A DNA stretch of 9,261 nucleotides from Gammaproteobacteria bacterium (GTDB lineage Bacteria; Pseudomonadota; Gammaproteobacteria; SURF-13), in contig JAMDBH010000034.1 of assembly GCA_023487615.1 (NCBI GenBank), positions 1 through 9,261 on the forward strand. Direction: 5' to 3'. The position numbers and the translations under genes are program-made. Below, one piece after another: positions 695-8,757 of the stretch. The notes beneath the pieces were generated by a model. The model searched no databases and had not been told where the DNA came from. It saw only the letters and a list, made by a program, of their open reading frames with translations. Position 1 is the stretch's first letter. The number at the start of each line of letters is the position of its first letter.

Positions 695-701
695 TCGAGT
701 C

Positions 702-739
702 TGACCCCATTGATTCTCCGTGACCCCATTGATTCTCCG
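702..739. repeat. Two perfect tandem copies of a 19-bp repeat
   Basis: The unit tgaccccattgattctccg occurs at 702-720 and again, identically, at 721-739. The block ends one base before the stop codon of the HNH-NTPase gene (741-743) and starts just upstream of the transposase promoter candidate. From general knowledge, sequences of the form ggggtcaga(g/c)tc are often found next to RAYT genes in environmental proteobacteria. These copies are therefore probably RAYT-linked repeats. The pair could also result from replication slippage or from duplication at an insertion boundary. Confidence 0.85.
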
Positions 740-740
740 G

Positions 741-3296
741 TCAGGGTTGCTCCTCCGCCTCCGTTATGGCTGCCGCAACTCTAGCCTTATCGTCTTCGGT
801 CAAGTAGCAATTTTTCGATATCAATTGGACACTCTCATTTCGTAGGTATGTGCTTTCGCGCACGGCCTTGCCTCTAAAGTTGGGATCGCCTGCGTATCTC
901 ACGAGCGCCTTCGCCACGAAGTCATGGTTCGCATTAATTGCCAAAGCGTACAGGCCTGAGCGCCGGTTATCGAATACCCGCTTCAAATCGTCATAAGTCA
1001 GAGTGTCCCGCAGAATGTCAGAGTACCGACGTCTCTGACCGTCCGATTCGGTCCTAAACGTGTATCGTGCGTCAAGCAGAACGTACTTGCACAGTTCTAC
1101 CACATTGGTGTCCTTTCCCCGAATCAACTCAACAAGCTTCTCTGGTTCAATTCTCTCCAGAAAGTAGACCCCGAGCTTAAGGCCATGTAACCGTTTTAAA
1201 AGCCAATGCAACTGTGTGAAAGAGCTATGGCGCATCGCGAGTCGCCGAATAAACTCAGCCCGGCAATCGTCGATGACCTTCCTCACGAAGCAGCGAACGG
1301 CCTCCTTCGCCTCAGGAGTGGGCGCGTAGTAGTAGATGTTCTTGAATATTTCCATCCATTTCGCCAACGACGTTACGCCACCCTCAGTCCCGTCGGCCAG
1401 AAACGTCTTGCTCACGGCATCGGGAGTCAGAAGACAGAAGAGCTCGTACGCCTTCGCTGGCGAGACTCGATACAGTGCTCGGAGCACGTACAGCTTGCTA
1501 ACTATGTACGCCCCACTGCCGTTCACCTGCCGTGCAAACGCCTGCAGCACGTCGCCATCGAAGAAAGCGTTGATCGCAGAGTCATCAAGAACGGCGAGGC
1601 GGCGAATCACCCCGTCGAGCTTCTTCCCCAGAGGCCGCTTAAGCAGATACCAGCGAGTGATGGCGCGGACTCTTGCATTGCTATAAACGAGGCGCATTTC
1701 CTCCGGATCAGAGTAGTGTCCGAGAATGTGGTACAGGCATTGCGGAAACCGCTCGGCGTAATCGGCCAGAGCTTCGGCTGGATCGGCTGTGTATCCGTAG
1801 TATCTGGTGTAGAGGCGTGCAAGTAGCTTGGCCTTCGTTGGATGCAGGCGAGGGGCGACGACAAGAGCGCTCGTATGGGCGTGTTTCTCTGATTCCCAGT
1901 CCTGTTCAACGACGGCGAGAACACCCTGTGCGGCGAGAGTGCGCAGTACTTCGCTGGCGCCTCTACCAATGAGCTCGGAGGCATAGTCTGCGTGGATGGC
2001 AACACCAAGACCGAACAACGGAAGCAGCAGAGAGAGGGTCTCGCGAAAGTCGAGAAGAAAGCTCTCTTTTCGCCGCAGGAAAGCATGGGCGCGCTTGAGA
2101 ATGTCCTCTTCCGTGACTGGTTTGATCGATCCCGCAGCGAGGGAGCGGAGAACCTCGTTCCAGAACGCCATGTTGCGGTACTTGATGGGAAGGCCTGTAA
2201 GTTTTGCAGCACCAACGCTTTCAAGGAAACCTGAGGCGGCGTCGGGTTCTCCCAACTGCCGGAATCGGAGTCGGACAAGCCGTTCAAAATCCACGAAGTG
2301 CTCGCGCATCGTAAGCACGGGTGTGTTGGCGCCAAACGTATCCAGCAGCGTGTCGTCATCAAGGGGGCGTGTCAGAAACAGAAACAACGGCCTGCCCGCG
2401 TAGGTACCCGCCTGAGATATGGCGGAGATCAATTGTTCCGCCTTAATCAGGTCATGCTGGGAATTGTCAACTATCAAGATCGTTGAATCGTCGTCTCTGA
2501 TTGCAAGCGGCCTGAGGCTCTCTGGGGTCAGGCTGGTCGAGCGGATATCGTGGCAGTAGTGGACCGCGTACCCCTCTCGAGACAGCTGGAGCGAGAGCAG
2601 CAGAGCGTTGAAGGTCTTACCAGAACCTTCGTGCCCAGAGACAAGGAGGCGGTTGACGGTCCCCGGCCTCAAATGGTCGTTGAAAAGGCTGAAAAATAGC
2701 CGACGAAGATCTCCTGATAGGAGCTCGACATAGTCGGACTTCGGACCGTCGAACTCGAACAGGAAGTTCCGTGTGATCAAGGCAGAAAAGGCATCCGCAG
2801 CCGGCAGAAAGCACGACGGTAGTTCGGGCGGCTGGGGCTTGGGCTCGGGAGCGACGGTGATGTTCAACGTACCGGCAGTAATGCCGCCGGTTTGGTTGTG
2901 GGAACTGACGACCGTGCTGCCAGGGCCCGATACATGAAAGGTTGCCAAGAATTGGCTCGCTATTTCATCGGACGGCTCTGGCTCTGTGTGGACCGACGTT
3001 TCATGGCTGCGCTTGATTTCTGACAACCGCGCTACCGAGTAGCTAACTTCATCATCATCGACGACATCATGGTGTATCGGGCAGAGCAGAATGAGGTTGT
3101 CGAAACCGTGTCGCTCGTCGTCATCCTGTAATGGGTCATGTCTCGGGCCACGAGGTCTTCTCCCCTTGATATGAGAGATTCTTCCCGTAACCTTACCCGA
3201 CGGATCAACGAGTGAATTGGAGCACTCCGGGAAGGCGCACCTATTGCCCGAAACTCCAAAGAGGCGTTTTATCGTGGGCAGAGTGGGTCCCGTCAT
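741..3296 (-). CDS. HNH endonuclease fused to a STAND/NACHT-like P-loop NTPase; candidate anti-phage defence protein
   Basis: This is an 851-residue, apparently intact protein. Residues 8-100 form an HNH nuclease domain with zinc ligands C20, C25, C72 and H75, and probable active-site residues H42 (SHIKG), N67 (FDNLILLC) and H75/H76 (CPIHH). A linker with NQTGGITAG (134-142) and a proline-rich stretch (150-160) follows. The NTPase domain has Walker A GHEGSGKT (221-228), Walker B TILIVD (272-277) and a sensor-like LFLFLTRP (304-311). Residues 415-495 may be a winged helix. Residues 500-851 look all-helical with no recognised domain. An N-terminal effector, a central NTPase and a C-terminal helical sensor is the layout of STAND defence ATPases such as Avs proteins. 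The inferred role is an NTPase-gated nuclease that attacks DNA on sensing infection, but no named system is recognised. No clear Shine-Dalgarno sequence precedes the ATG. The start is chosen because the HNH domain begins within the first 20 residues. No partner gene is adjacent. Confidence 0.87.
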   Translation of the reverse strand: MTGPTLPTIKRLFGVSGNRCAFPECSNSLVDPSGKVTGRISHIKGRRPRGPRHDPLQDDDERHGFDNLILLCPIHHDVVDDDEVSYSVARLSEIKRSHETSVHTEPEPSDEIASQFLATFHVSGPGSTVVSSHNQTGGITAGTLNITVAPEPKPQPPELPSCFLPAADAFSALITRNFLFEFDGPKSDYVELLSGDLRRLFFSLFNDHLRPGTVNRLLVSGHEGSGKTFNALLLSLQLSREGYAVHYCHDIRSTSLTPESLRPLAIRDDDSTILIVDNSQHDLIKAEQLISAISQAGTYAGRPLFLFLTRPLDDDTLLDTFGANTPVLTMREHFVDFERLVRLRFRQLGEPDAASGFLESVGAAKLTGLPIKYRNMAFWNEVLRSLAAGSIKPVTEEDILKRAHAFLRRKESFLLDFRETLSLLLPLFGLGVAIHADYASELIGRGASEVLRTLAAQGVLAVVEQDWESEKHAHTSALVVAPRLHPTKAKLLARLYTRYYGYTADPAEALADYAERFPQCLYHILGHYSDPEEMRLVYSNARVRAITRWYLLKRPLGKKLDGVIRRLAVLDDSAINAFFDGDVLQAFARQVNGSGAYIVSKLYVLRALYRVSPAKAYELFCLLTPDAVSKTFLADGTEGGVTSLAKWMEIFKNIYYYAPTPEAKEAVRCFVRKVIDDCRAEFIRRLAMRHSSFTQLHWLLKRLHGLKLGVYFLERIEPEKLVELIRGKDTNVVELCKYVLLDARYTFRTESDGQRRRYSDILRDTLTYDDLKRVFDNRRSGLYALAINANHDFVAKALVRYAGDPNFRGKAVRESTYLRNESVQLISKNCYLTEDDKARVAAAITEAEEQP

Positions 3297-3376
3297 GGAT
3301 GTGTTCGCTGGCTAACGGATGGAGTTGAGCGACGCTCGTGGCAAAGTAGGCCGGGGAAGTGTGAGCATGTTCCCCG

Positions 3377-3390
3377 CGAGCGATCGCTCG
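3377..3390. promoter_or_regulatory. Perfect 14-bp palindrome upstream of the HNH-NTPase gene
   Basis: The sequence cgagcgatcgctcg equals its own reverse complement. It lies about 80 bases before the HNH-NTPase start codon, where a repressor or activator dimer could bind. No regulator is encoded next to it, so a regulatory role is only a possibility. As RNA it would form a 5-bp stem with a 4-base loop. Confidence 0.25.
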
Positions 3391-3478
3391 AACGAATAGT
3401 TCAACGTGAGAGGGGGCGGTTCAGTCTTGGCAATGAAAATGGACACCTTCATGCAATCATCACTCCAGAAAAATCAGA

Positions 3479-3640
3479 TCACGCAAATGTCGGGGTCAGA
3501 TCTTGCACAAACACATTGCTCCCATGAATGAGTTCTATTGCTGCTATTGCAGGGTACGTGTAAAGCACTTCAGTATCCGTACCGAGTAAGCCCATACGGA
3601 CTAGATTAAACGCTTTATTTTGTTTCATGGCAAGCGGCAT
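3479..3640 (-). CDS. Possible 53-residue hypothetical protein or gene remnant
   Basis: A short frame starts MPLAMKQNKAFNLV and ends VFVQDLTPTFA. The segment encoding QDLTP is the ggggtcaga repeat read on the minus strand, so the C-terminus is contributed by a repeat. No Shine-Dalgarno sequence precedes either possible ATG, and no family is recognised. It lies just downstream of rlmD. It may be a chance frame, or the tail of a gene broken when the accessory DNA arrived. Confidence 0.18.
   Translation of the reverse strand: MPLAMKQNKAFNLVRMGLLGTDTEVLYTYPAIAAIELIHGSNVFVQDLTPTFA
3492..3500. repeat. Short ggggtcaga motif, inverted relative to the tctgacccc at 700-708
   Basis: The 9 bases ggggtcaga are the exact reverse complement of tctgacccc at 700-708. 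The two copies bracket the HNH-NTPase gene in opposite orientations about 2.8 kb apart. A second tcagatc...gca match sits 22 bases to the left (3474-3485 against 3496-3507). The match is short, so bracketing by chance is possible. The link to a RAYT-type repeat rests on general knowledge of such repeats. Confidence 0.45.
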
Positions 3641-3661
3641 CCGTAGGCAATGGGGGCGGAG

Positions 3662-5059
3662 TTAGCCACTATTTTCGCATTTTTCAAACAACGCGATGGA
3701 TTCAACATGCGTGGTGTGAGGAAACATATCCAGCACGCCCGCGCTCATTAACGTGTAGCCGTTTTCCGTCAATGCGCGCGCATCGCGCGCCAGGGTGGCT
3801 GGGTTGCATGAGACATAGACGATGCGTGCGGCATCGAACGCGGGGAGTTGTTGCATAATCTCCAGGGCGCCGGTGCGCGGCGGGTCGAGCAGGATTTTAT
3901 CAAAGCGCTGTTTGGCCCACGGCTGCCCGGACAAATCCTGACTGAGGTCGGCGGCATAAAATTCCGCATTGTGGATACCGTTGCGTTGAGCGTTGTCCTG
4001 TGCGCGCTGAATCAGTTTCGCCTCCCCCTCCACGCCGGTGACTTGGGCGGCATGGCGCGCCAGAGGCAAGGTGAAGTTGCCGAGTCCGCAGAATAAATCC
4101 AGCACGCGCTCGTGCGCTCCCGGCTGAAGAAGTTCTATCACGCGGCTTATCATGGCGCGATTGACATCGGCATTGATTTGCACGAAATCGGCCGGAGAAA
4201 AGAACAGTTCCAGATTGAATTGTCGCTCCCGGCGTCCTGCCTCCCGCGACATTAGTACATCCCTGTACGTCACAGGCAGGCGGTAGCTCAGGGCGGCGGT
4301 CTCCGGCCATATCAGCGTCACGCTGTCCGGCCCGGCCGGTTGCAGGTAAATCTGCATGTTTTGCTGTTTGCCGAAGTCTTGCAGCTTGACCAGATCAGTG
4401 TTGCTCAACTCCGCCAGATTGCGAAACACCAAGGCCGTGGCTTCGTCGCCCGCGGCCACTTCGATCTGGGGAATACAGTCGTAGGCTTCCAGCCCGGCAA
4501 TGAGTTCGCGCAGCGCCGGAAGCAATCCGCCCACGGGGGGATGCAACACTTCACAGCGCCCTATGTCGGCGAGCAACGAACTGCGCTTCTCGCGGAAGCC
4601 GATCAGCAGTTTGTCCTTCTTGATGACAAACTTGACGCCCAGGCGCGCCCTGCGCCGGTAACCCCAGGAGGGGCCGGTGAGCGGCGCAAGAACAGTCTTT
4701 GGTTCGATCCCGCCTATGTGTTTCAGGCTGTCCAGCAACACCTGCTGTTTGGCTGCGATTTGCGCCGTGGGAGAAAGGTGCTGCAAGCTGCACCCGCCAC
4801 AGATGTTGAAATGCGCGCAACGCGGTTCGACGCGATCGGGCGACGGTTTGATAATTTTCTCGACCTTCGCTTCGTCATAGCGTTTGCGTTGCTTGATATA
4901 GGTAAACAACACCTGCTCGCCCGGCAAGGCGCCTTCAATGAACACCGCCTTGCCGTTGATGTGCGCCACACCACGCCCGTCGTGTGATAGCGACTCGATA
5001 TGTGCCAAGACAGGCTCTTCTTGTGAGAGAGGTTTATAACTACGGGAGCGGCGGGGCAT
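3662..5059 (-). CDS. rlmD: 23S rRNA (uracil-1939-C5)-methyltransferase RlmD
   Basis: RlmD uses S-adenosylmethionine to make 5-methyluridine at position 1939 of 23S rRNA. The 465-residue protein has an N-terminal TRAM domain (about 14-72, with ESLSHDGRGVAHINGKAVF) that binds RNA. Four cysteines, C81, C87, C90 and C169, match the [4Fe-4S] ligands of E. coli RlmD (C74, C80, C83, C162) with a constant +7 offset. The methyltransferase domain has VLDLFCGLGNFTLPLA (319-334), LLDPPRTGA (390-398), catalytic C418 in YVSCNPATLARDA and a catalytic base E453 in HVESIALF. These last two are +29 relative to E. coli C389 and E424. About 22 extra residues thus lie between, mostly at 263-280 (see the feature at 4220-4273). 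No Shine-Dalgarno sequence is seen, but the N-terminus fits the family. It follows the exonuclease gene by 58 bp. In pseudomonads and others relA follows; here it does not. Confidence 0.95.
   Translation of the reverse strand: MPRRSRSYKPLSQEEPVLAHIESLSHDGRGVAHINGKAVFIEGALPGEQVLFTYIKQRKRYDEAKVEKIIKPSPDRVEPRCAHFNICGGCSLQHLSPTAQIAAKQQVLLDSLKHIGGIEPKTVLAPLTGPSWGYRRRARLGVKFVIKKDKLLIGFREKRSSLLADIGRCEVLHPPVGGLLPALRELIAGLEAYDCIPQIEVAAGDEATALVFRNLAELSNTDLVKLQDFGKQQNMQIYLQPAGPDSVTLIWPETAALSYRLPVTYRDVLMSREAGRRERQFNLELFFSPADFVQINADVNRAMISRVIELLQPGAHERVLDLFCGLGNFTLPLARHAAQVTGVEGEAKLIQRAQDNAQRNGIHNAEFYAADLSQDLSGQPWAKQRFDKILLDPPRTGALEIMQQLPAFDAARIVYVSCNPATLARDARALTENGYTLMSAGVLDMFPHTTHVESIALFEKCENSG
4220..4273 (-). 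repeat. Probable in-frame palindromic insertion within rlmD (about 54 bp, 18 codons)
   Basis: Residues 263-280 of RlmD have no counterpart in E. coli RlmD as recalled, and removing them joins LSYRLP directly to FNLELFFSPADF as in relatives. The DNA has two potential hairpins. At 4222-4250 there are outer arms gtcgc/gcgac, a symmetric 4x4 purine internal loop in the mRNA strand, an inner ggc/gcc stem and a 5-base loop. At 4255-4268 the arms are gtaca/tgtac with a 4-base loop. The insert is basic (MSREAGRRERQ). It is probably a small mobile palindromic element tolerated in a surface loop, comparable in behaviour to Rickettsia palindromic elements. Its exact ends are uncertain by a few codons. 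Confidence 0.65.
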
Positions 5060-6708: not shown

Positions 6709-8757
6709 TTACTGTACCACCGGTCCTTCACTGCGTGTGGCCTGTTTGAGACGCTCCAGAAACACATCCCAGTCCACCTCTTTTGCGTAGCCTATCACAT
6801 CTATGCGGGGGATACCGCCGCCCTTGACGATGTAATAACCCTTGTTGGCCTGTTCTACGCCGTCCATCTTGCACACGCCGTGCTGTAGTCGGCATGTTAG
6901 ACCCAATCGGTTATAGGAAAATTCATCGAAGAAGCGTAAAAAACTGCGCGACAACACGCCGCCCGCACCGCCCAGGCTGGAGAGGCTATCCACAGCCTTT
7001 TGACTTATACGATGCCGTGAGGCGTCGCCCTCGGGCGTGGCGAAGCGCGCGTCGAAGGCGACCGGGTTCCAGTTCTCCATGCGTAGACCATGCACCGTGC
7101 CGTTGAGCCGCCCCTGGATGCGCCCGAAGGAAAATGTTTGGGTGAGCATGTCGAGGTCCAGATTATCCATGTCCACATCGGCGATCAACACCGGCGTTGT
7201 GCCTAAAGGATCGGCCAGACTCAGGTTGCGCACTACCACGTCGCCGTCGAAGACCTTCATCAGCAGCGCCCCGCCTATCTCCAGTTTGCCTTGTGAATAA
7301 CTGAGCGCCGGAATGATGCCTGAGAGTTTTCCGTTCATGTCGGGCCACTCCATCGCGCGGGTGAAGGCCGGCATGGATATCGGCGTGAGCGCGCCGGCCA
7401 GTTCGATGCGCTGGTCGGGCCGGCCTAAATTTTCCAGCTTCGCGCTGTCCATTTTTAGAACACCGTCAAGCAATGGAATTTCCACGCCTTCTGGTAGGCT
7501 GAGACCGGCATTGACGGACTCCGCACGTGCCCTCGCCGCGCCCAGTGCGAGCTTATAAATAGATCCACCCTGCCATTGGAAATCGGATAGCAGAGGTGTG
7601 TTGCCGCGGGTCCAAGCTAAAGAACCGTTGAGAGAGCGTAATTCGTAACGTCCCTGCTGATCCTTGATGCTGAGATCTTTCAGATCGGTCTTAATAAACT
7701 CAAGGCCTTGGCCATTGTATTGCAACGTGGCAGCGAGGGCGCCGTCTCCTTGCAGGGCCTCGAATGCCGTGCCGCTCAACATCGCCTGCAGATAGCGCCG
7801 ATAAAACTGACCGGCTTCGGGTGTGTTGAGTTTAAGTGTCGCGGCCTGTAAACGTAATGGGTTACGGGACAGCGCCACCTGCGCCTCGGCCTGGACAACT
7901 GTCGGGTGGTCGAGTATCAGACGGCTGAGGGTGATGTGCTCTTTACTCCATTCGCCGCTGGCATCGAGTTTCACCTCATCACCGGTAAACTCCACAAGCA
8001 TCGGCGCGACATAGATCTGGCCTTGGTGAGGAGCGAGGCGTGCCTGAAATTGCCAGCGATCAGCGATGGGTTTGAGTGAGAGTATAAAATCGGAAGTCAG
8101 GTCCTGAGCGGCCTGTTGCCCGGAGGTTTCCGTGAAATTTAAGGCAGTGAACTTGCCTGTCGTTTCGATCTTAGCGAGCTGTGACCCATGTCCCTCCAAC
8201 TTTGCAGTCAGGCTGAGTCCACCCTTCATGGCGTACTCTTTGGGCCATTCAAAAAAATCGCCCAAACTCTGCGGGAGCAGTGCTATGTTCAGCGACTCGC
8301 CCTGGAATTGTACCCGCCAGTCCTGCCTTGGCGTGAAACTCCCACTCAAGCCCGCGTTACCCTTCGCCAGGCCAAATCCCTGCAATGCAAAACGAATCTC
8401 TCCCGACCGGCGATCATAACCGAGGTCTGCCTTGCCCTGCTTGCGGTTGAGCATAGGACTGTCGAGGCTTAGCAAACCGTTTTTGCAGTCTATAGGCCGG
8501 TCTTCGGCCATCACCAAAGGGCATTCTAATTTCAAACCATGCAAGCCGTGCAGTGGCTTTGGGAGTTGCAGTTTGGAGATGGACAGCGCCAGCTTATCCG
8601 CGCCGCCGCCGGGAAGATCTGCATCGAGATGGATGTCGCGCAGTTCCCAGCCGGACCCTCTGACTGTGGCAGCATAAAAGTGCAGAGTGTCAACGGCATG
8701 CGCAGGCAGCGCGGCAAGACCGGTTAGCAATACCAAGGCGTAAGGCGGTATTTTCAT
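6709..8757 (-). CDS. ydbH: YdbH-family AsmA-like envelope protein (intermembrane phospholipid transport type)
   Basis: The 682-residue protein has an N-terminal hydrophobic segment (4-20) ending in PAHA, a good signal-peptidase I site after A21. The rest is rich in beta strands with alternating polar and hydrophobic residues, as in AsmA/TamB-like lipid-bridge proteins. The conserved C-terminal part (about 400-682) includes SFGRIQGRLNGTVHG, GGAGGVLSRSFLRFFDEFSYNRLGL read as separate blocks, and GGGIPRIDVIGYAKEVDW. Two cysteine pairs, C79/C91 and C622/C629, could form periplasmic disulfides. E. coli YdbH is longer (about 880 residues). Identification rests on this pattern plus the adjacent DUF1318/YdbL gene. 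AAGG lies about 6 bases before the ATG. The gene follows cysM by 48 bp in the same direction and may be read through from it. Confidence 0.8.
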   Translation of the reverse strand: MKIPPYALVLLTGLAALPAHAVDTLHFYAATVRGSGWELRDIHLDADLPGGGADKLALSISKLQLPKPLHGLHGLKLECPLVMAEDRPIDCKNGLLSLDSPMLNRKQGKADLGYDRRSGEIRFALQGFGLAKGNAGLSGSFTPRQDWRVQFQGESLNIALLPQSLGDFFEWPKEYAMKGGLSLTAKLEGHGSQLAKIETTGKFTALNFTETSGQQAAQDLTSDFILSLKPIADRWQFQARLAPHQGQIYVAPMLVEFTGDEVKLDASGEWSKEHITLSRLILDHPTVVQAEAQVALSRNPLRLQAATLKLNTPEAGQFYRRYLQAMLSGTAFEALQGDGALAATLQYNGQGLEFIKTDLKDLSIKDQQGRYELRSLNGSLAWTRGNTPLLSDFQWQGGSIYKLALGAARARAESVNAGLSLPEGVEIPLLDGVLKMDSAKLENLGRPDQRIELAGALTPISMPAFTRAMEWPDMNGKLSGIIPALSYSQGKLEIGGALLMKVFDGDVVVRNLSLADPLGTTPVLIADVDMDNLDLDMLTQTFSFGRIQGRLNGTVHGLRMENWNPVAFDARFATPEGDASRHRISQKAVDSLSSLGGAGGVLSRSFLRFFDEFSYNRLGLTCRLQHGVCKMDGVEQANKGYYIVKGGGIPRIDVIGYAKEVDWDVFLERLKQATRSEGPVVQ

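Follow-up and report, generated by a model that had tools for sequence, protein, structure and literature searches.

The stretch of DNA analysed here, called the window, comprises 9,261 nucleotides of contig JAMDBH010000034.1 from a gammaproteobacterial assembly (GCA_023487615.1). Its reverse strand carries, at 741..3296 (-), a gene complete from ATG to stop codon for an 851-residue protein (P0001) with a predicted HNH effector, STAND NTPase and alpha-solenoid sensor, which is the order of parts in Avs/AVAST systems. The HNH nuclease domain (residues 8-104; 2985..3275 (-)) is followed by a Gly/Asn/Thr-rich, beta-like linker of putative role, placed by alignment (residues 122-150; 2847..2933 (-)), with the motif NQTGGITAGT. 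The nucleotide-binding domain (NBD; residues 195-333; 2298..2714 (-)) contains Walker A at 221-228 (K227), Walker B with D277, and a sensor-1-like LTRP at 308-311; it leads into a helical domain (residues 334-416; 2049..2297 (-)) with the family signature YRNMAFWNE at 373-381, a winged-helix domain (residues 417-485; 1842..2048 (-)) that ends in LHPTKA, and an ARM/HEAT-like alpha-solenoid of predicted fold, the presumed sensor (residues 485-849; 750..1844 (-)).

The original prediction had read an HNH nuclease, a STAND NTPase and a helical sensor from this gene, a layout since borne out by profiles, fold matches and family-wide invariants. All of the residues it named (C20, C25, H42, N67, C72, H75 and H76; GHEGSGKT with K227; TILIVD with D277) lie where it placed them and are in place beyond chance. 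Its "about 350" helical residues are 365, which when modelled alone are predicted to form an alpha-solenoid with a mean predicted local distance difference test score (pLDDT) of 92.3.

The Walker A and Walker B motifs of STAND NTPases are present as GHEGSGKT and TILIVDN; among 24 aligned members of the core family described below, the Walker A lysine is identical in 24/24 and the Walker B aspartate in 23/24 (P0030 has a gap). Pfam models around the P-loop are nSTAND3 (E 9e-5), nSTAND_NTPase5 (1.6e-4) and AAA_16, all below the Pfam cut-offs. The top-scoring NTPase model, nSTAND3 (PF20720), gives 22.7 bits for P0001 against a gathering cut-off of 27.2, which the family member P0014 exceeds with 30.5; an NCBIfam scan of P0001 returned no match. 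The predicted secondary structure and the solenoid model arrange the core in the STAND succession: the NBD comes first, then a helical domain, a winged helix and the repeats, here a solenoid. Fold matches of the core take in SAMD9 (5.2e-8), NOD2 (8.3e-6), EfAvs5 (9.8e-6), NLRP3, Avs4, Apaf-1, CED-4 and RPP1, and also ORC/Cdc6 and RuvB. H485, identical in 24/24 aligned members, appears from the secondary structure to occupy the position of the histidine in the MHD motif of NLRs.

No Pfam, NCBIfam or PADLOC model matched the solenoid, and its structural matches include PUF domains and ribosomal and RNA-editing solenoids. Mean pairwise identity over the 24 rows is 0.481 for the NBD, 0.422 for the helical domain, 0.365 for the winged helix and 0.439 for the sensor, and the P-loop, YRNMAFWNE and LHPTKA are among the most constant motifs of the family. 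So constant a sensor suggests a constant ligand.

HNH domain and linker

The seven HNH residues listed above supply the catalytic His/Asn and the zinc ligands of an HNH endonuclease, and H42, N67, C72 and the HH pair align with the catalytic His/Asn and Cys/His ligands of solved HNH proteins. The solved proteins that match are mostly SAVED-domain proteins (9om4, E 1.7e-13; 7rwk, 1.1e-10), and the domain is of the SAVED-HNH type. Among PADLOC models, the candidate PDC-M68A matches best (1.4e-27), followed by an endonuclease model, the best of those labelled "Effector" (3.4e-19), SAVED_HNH (4.2e-18) and SduA (6.1e-18); the SAVED-HNH matches we take to be CBASS Cap5 proteins, and SduA to be Shedu. 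The best stretches of all 15 PADLOC matches of P0001 at E up to 10 fall in residues 8-119, the HNH part.

The closest HNH domain, 58.7% identical, belongs to an HNH-NB-ARC-TPR protein (P0018); it has Asn at the position of the catalytic histidine (ICNI) and, judging from this substitution, may be inactive. HNH domains 41-52% identical to that of P0001 occur in nine more proteins, P0019-P0027, which carry other C-termini, and the lowest match, 32% identical, is P0013, a member of the core family. P0019 is a 539-residue fusion of HNH, TIR and formylglycine-generating-enzyme-like domains, and P0027 joins HNH to a PIN-TPR-GreABC domain, with no STAND NTPase found in it. In seven of these proteins (P0020-P0026) the HNH is followed by a linker motif like NQTGGITAGT or NQSGGITAHTV. 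By eye, the linker of P0001 gives the impression of an amyloid signalling motif; families of such bacterial motifs are described, with no motif sequences given, in the accessible portions of PMC8086366 and PMC12261475. A somewhat similar beta-like segment, with no enzyme, opens the core-family protein P0012.

Core family and its N-termini

Three protein searches, with about 8,000 candidates scored in each, gave a core family of at least 27 cluster representatives including P0001. The other 26 are 30.7-87.6% identical to the P0001 core (residue 157 onward); all 27 have the NTPase and solenoid core in common, and at the N-terminus they fall into seven dissimilar types. What the original prediction read as an HNH system is one member of this family with its seven types of N-terminus. 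Its further claim that no named system is matched holds for the core, which has neither a PADLOC nor an NCBIfam match. The Cap5-type HNH occurs in two representatives (P0001, P0013) and a second HNH type in one (P0010); AlbA/Schlafen heads three and, in divergent form, a fourth (P0032, from precomputed Pfam), PNP two and SMEK three. A helical module heads 12 (P0002, P0004-P0006, P0009, P0014, P0017, P0028-P0030, P0033, P0036), a short beta segment with no enzyme heads P0012, and two have no N-terminus. The named sources among the 26 homologues are a Candidatus Altiarchaeota metagenome-assembled genome and a candidate division NPL-UPA2 bacterium. In the literature searched, which includes few subscription papers and in which absence is weak evidence, no description of the core family was found.

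The core tree and the conservation counts use 24 rows, leaving out P0016 and P0031, which lack the N-terminus, and P0032, which lacks most of the C-terminus. In the tree P0001 is sister to P0002 (support 100/100); the two cores are 87.6% identical and the N-termini unrelated, HNH in P0001 and the helical module in P0002, with the match starting sharply at ELPxCFLPAADAF. Comparison with this sister core suggests that the HNH was either gained recently on the P0001 side or recently lost on the other. The seven N-terminal labels require at least 10 changes on the tree, where the least possible is 6 and label shuffles average 11.7; 7 of 200 shuffles go as low as the real tree, so that the N-termini are partly inherited and partly replaced. 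A near-identical sister core with another N-terminus, together with a closest HNH on a protein of another architecture, is the domain-shuffling signature of effector-switch-sensor immune receptors. HNH, REase, PNPase, TIR and SIR2 likewise interchange in other predicted counter-invader systems, according to the accessible part of PMC8195603.

A PADLOC scan covered 15 of the 27 representatives, and in 6 of these the N-terminus matched a defence module: HNH (P0001, P0013), the "PN-superfamily" effector for PNP (P0011, P0037), and Aga_REase models, presumably Argonaute-associated, for SMEK (P0015, P0034). The 14 members other than P0001 gave a single core match, a weak one to mad8 (0.0015) in P0014. 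PADLOC-DB 2.0 holds named Avs models, and P0001 matched none of them. The helical module is about 95 residues long and often contains LLKKxPPGxS, and the start of P0005 is longer and different. Scanned copies (all but P0028-P0030, P0033 and P0036) have no Pfam domain above cut-off, no copy has a clear membrane segment (19-residue hydropathy maxima 0.5-1.7), and the copy of one member found no match among plasmids.

A candidate STAND immune receptor and its alternatives

P0001 is probably an Avs-like STAND immune receptor of an apparently undescribed core family in which switch and sensor are kept and the N-terminal effector is exchanged. Sequence comparison and structure models show the three-part layout, catalytic and nucleotide-binding residues that are intact, a sensor that is conserved, and an N-terminus replaced again and again; architecture, kinship of modules and shuffling together suggest a role in defence. 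Among the closest known systems is Avs5 (AVAST type 5). In the part of PMC12931631 that could be consulted, nSTAND3 is its named domain, and its homologues are described as showing poor conservation of the ATPase and the C-terminal domain alike. P0001 shares the effector-STAND-helical repeat order of Avs5 (SIR2, nSTAND3, TPR/Sel1), and its core fold matches include EfAvs5 (9jap) as well as the AVAST5 filament (9nc9), but it has HNH instead of SIR2, and Pfam found no TPR or Sel1 repeat in it. The P0001 core family is also better conserved in ATPase and C-terminus; as the two sets are unmatched for divergence, this contrast is one of overall divergence and no proof of a different kind of sensor.

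An NBD with helical domain and winged helix, completed by a sensor of repeats, also occurs in Avs1-Avs4, NOD2, NLRP3, Apaf-1, CED-4 and SAMD9 (Foldseek E 5e-8 to 5e-4), but sequence-level kinship to Avs1-Avs4 and the eukaryotic NLRs is absent: against the PDB, the family profile matches only a designed helical repeat protein (E 0.9). The HNH domain is of the same type as that of CBASS Cap5 (HNH-SAVED), with ligands and catalytic residues aligned; unlike Cap5, P0001 has no SAVED match beyond the HNH stretch, and the window holds no CD-NTase gene (none in the six other open reading frames (ORFs) scanned, a view limited by the contig ends). Fused to a STAND switch, the HNH would answer the switch instead of a cyclic nucleotide. 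The TPR-GreAB-C-PIN and TRADD-N systems, as far as the accessible part of PMC8195603 describes them, also join a constant part to replaceable N-terminal effectors including HNH and PNPase, but on a different core.

A cycle of resting state, ligand binding, nucleotide exchange and oligomerisation is established for Avs and NLR proteins, and the HNH of Cap5 is activated by assembly. By analogy, P0001 would rest with ADP bound and the winged helix closed until its alpha-solenoid recognised a trigger that is conserved and probably stems from an invader, for instance a phage protein. This would release the winged-helix lock and allow nucleotide exchange in the NTPase; the proteins would then oligomerise and bring their N-terminal HNH domains together, and the clustered domains would cut DNA of the invader, the host or both, so that infection is stopped. 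Members with PNP, AlbA or SMEK would give another output to the same signal.

Several observations count against such a receptor. The full-length AlphaFold model leaves the HNH of P0001 unfolded (pLDDT about 28), and in the VIA ranking EfAvs5 stands no higher than AAA+ proteins at large. The N-termini are in part inherited; 9 of the 15 scanned representatives have no N-terminal PADLOC match (P0010, P0003, P0008, P0032, P0002, P0006, P0014, P0036 and P0012), and the commonest N-terminus, the helical module (12/27), includes no recognised enzyme. Pfam alone, applied to the neighbouring ORFs of the window, found no known defence gene. No homologue of the core was found in 72,556 plasmid records, in 50,697 phage records or in three scans of viral contigs, and 396 genomes of one phylum held no convincing one (a weak 47-position match with an internal stop was not counted). 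A sensor about as conserved as the NBD could also be explained by an internal trigger.

One alternative is a STAND-controlled self-killing or stress switch, in which the solenoid would monitor a conserved host component (e.g. a damaged housekeeping complex), the exchangeable effectors would be toxic, and phage protection would be only one possible consequence. In its favour, sensor conservation among divergent members comes close to that of the NBD, as would suit a single constant ligand; the core was found in none of the viruses and plasmids searched; and the named homologue sources look scattered. On the other side, replaced effectors and a rare family suit a conflict system more than the monitoring of housekeeping functions, and Avs sensors likewise read conserved phage proteins (PMC12931631, accessible part); we rate such a switch as unlikely. 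That no core member turned up among plasmids, phages and viral contigs suggests a rare or chromosomal family and does not speak against a defensive one. PUF/HEAT-like arrays can bind DNA or RNA. The PUF, ribosomal and RNA-editing solenoids among the sensor's structural matches, and ORC/Cdc6 and RuvB among those of the core, would suit a nucleic-acid-guided restriction factor, with the solenoid binding invading DNA or RNA and positioning the HNH and the NTPase acting as motor or gate instead of a STAND oligomerisation switch; we regard this as a still less probable account.

Least credible of all is the idea that the gene, silent or decaying and with no present function, is carried along by the RayT-type transposase region next to it. 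When codon fit is compared among six ORFs, four of which form the training set, the gene scores lowest (-1.275 versus -0.998 to -1.167), which is consistent with later arrival, a simple scan of 3200-3700 found no promoter-like site (shuffles average 0.6), and a Y1 transposase adjoins; but the 851-codon frame is open, the catalytic and family-invariant residues checked are intact, and the protein's database entry represents 4 contigs.

If the immune-receptor reading holds for the whole family, this would be an undescribed bacterial, perhaps archaeal, STAND receptor family with one conserved solenoid sensor, probably one conserved trigger, and seven N-terminal outputs, one of them a short beta segment, amyloid-motif-like, through which a separate effector may be recruited; this wider proposal we hold to be evenly balanced between right and wrong. 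Effector-sensor combinations are already known from bacterial NLR-like receptors. Unrelated outputs on cores 88% identical amount to a natural experiment in which sensing can be told apart from response, and should the family be active, the trigger found for one member may hold for others. The fusion also suggests that a STAND switch, too, can work the HNH type known from cyclic-nucleotide receptors.

HNH-only relatives and surroundings of the gene

A tblastn search with the whole P0001 protein found 94 plasmid records, the best 20 of which reach at most residues 1-149, and P0015 matched 26 records, the best 20 of them within its residues 1-234 (SMEK and at most the first core stretch); P0012 had no plasmid match. 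Two plasmid neighbourhoods examined around HNH-only relatives have no bearing on the core. A scan of genome contigs with P0001 gave one locus (L001), matching residues 1-153 only, and an uninformative PF25199 search gave matches below cut-off in 14/14 control genomes.

Upstream of the gene in the window, all on the reverse strand, lie an RNA-methyltransferase gene, which we take to be rlmD-like, a PolB-like exonuclease, a DUF1318 gene, a large protein with no Pfam match and a PALP (cysteine synthase-like) gene; the order of these core genes is presumably gammaproteobacterial. A 682-residue protein (6709-8757 (-)) adjoins the DUF1318 gene and has no Pfam match at E up to 1. Downstream is a Y1_Tnp (RayT-type) transposase ORF (1-687), cut by the contig end. 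That the gene stands alone beside a transposase, as first claimed, is right as far as the contig is visible, but the contig ends past this ORF in 13 adapter-like bases, and further genes may have lain there. Positions 1-13 read GCTCTTCCGATCT, presumably the end of an Illumina adapter, so that the first bases look like an artefact. The sequence GGGGTCAGA occurs once per strand, at 700-708 (-) and 3492-3500 (+), flanking the HNH-STAND gene and pointing outward; the gene is possibly bracketed by RayT-type elements whose ends these are. Just 3' of the stop codon, at 702-739, lies a perfect tandem duplication of 19 bp (TGACCCCATTGATTCTCCG).
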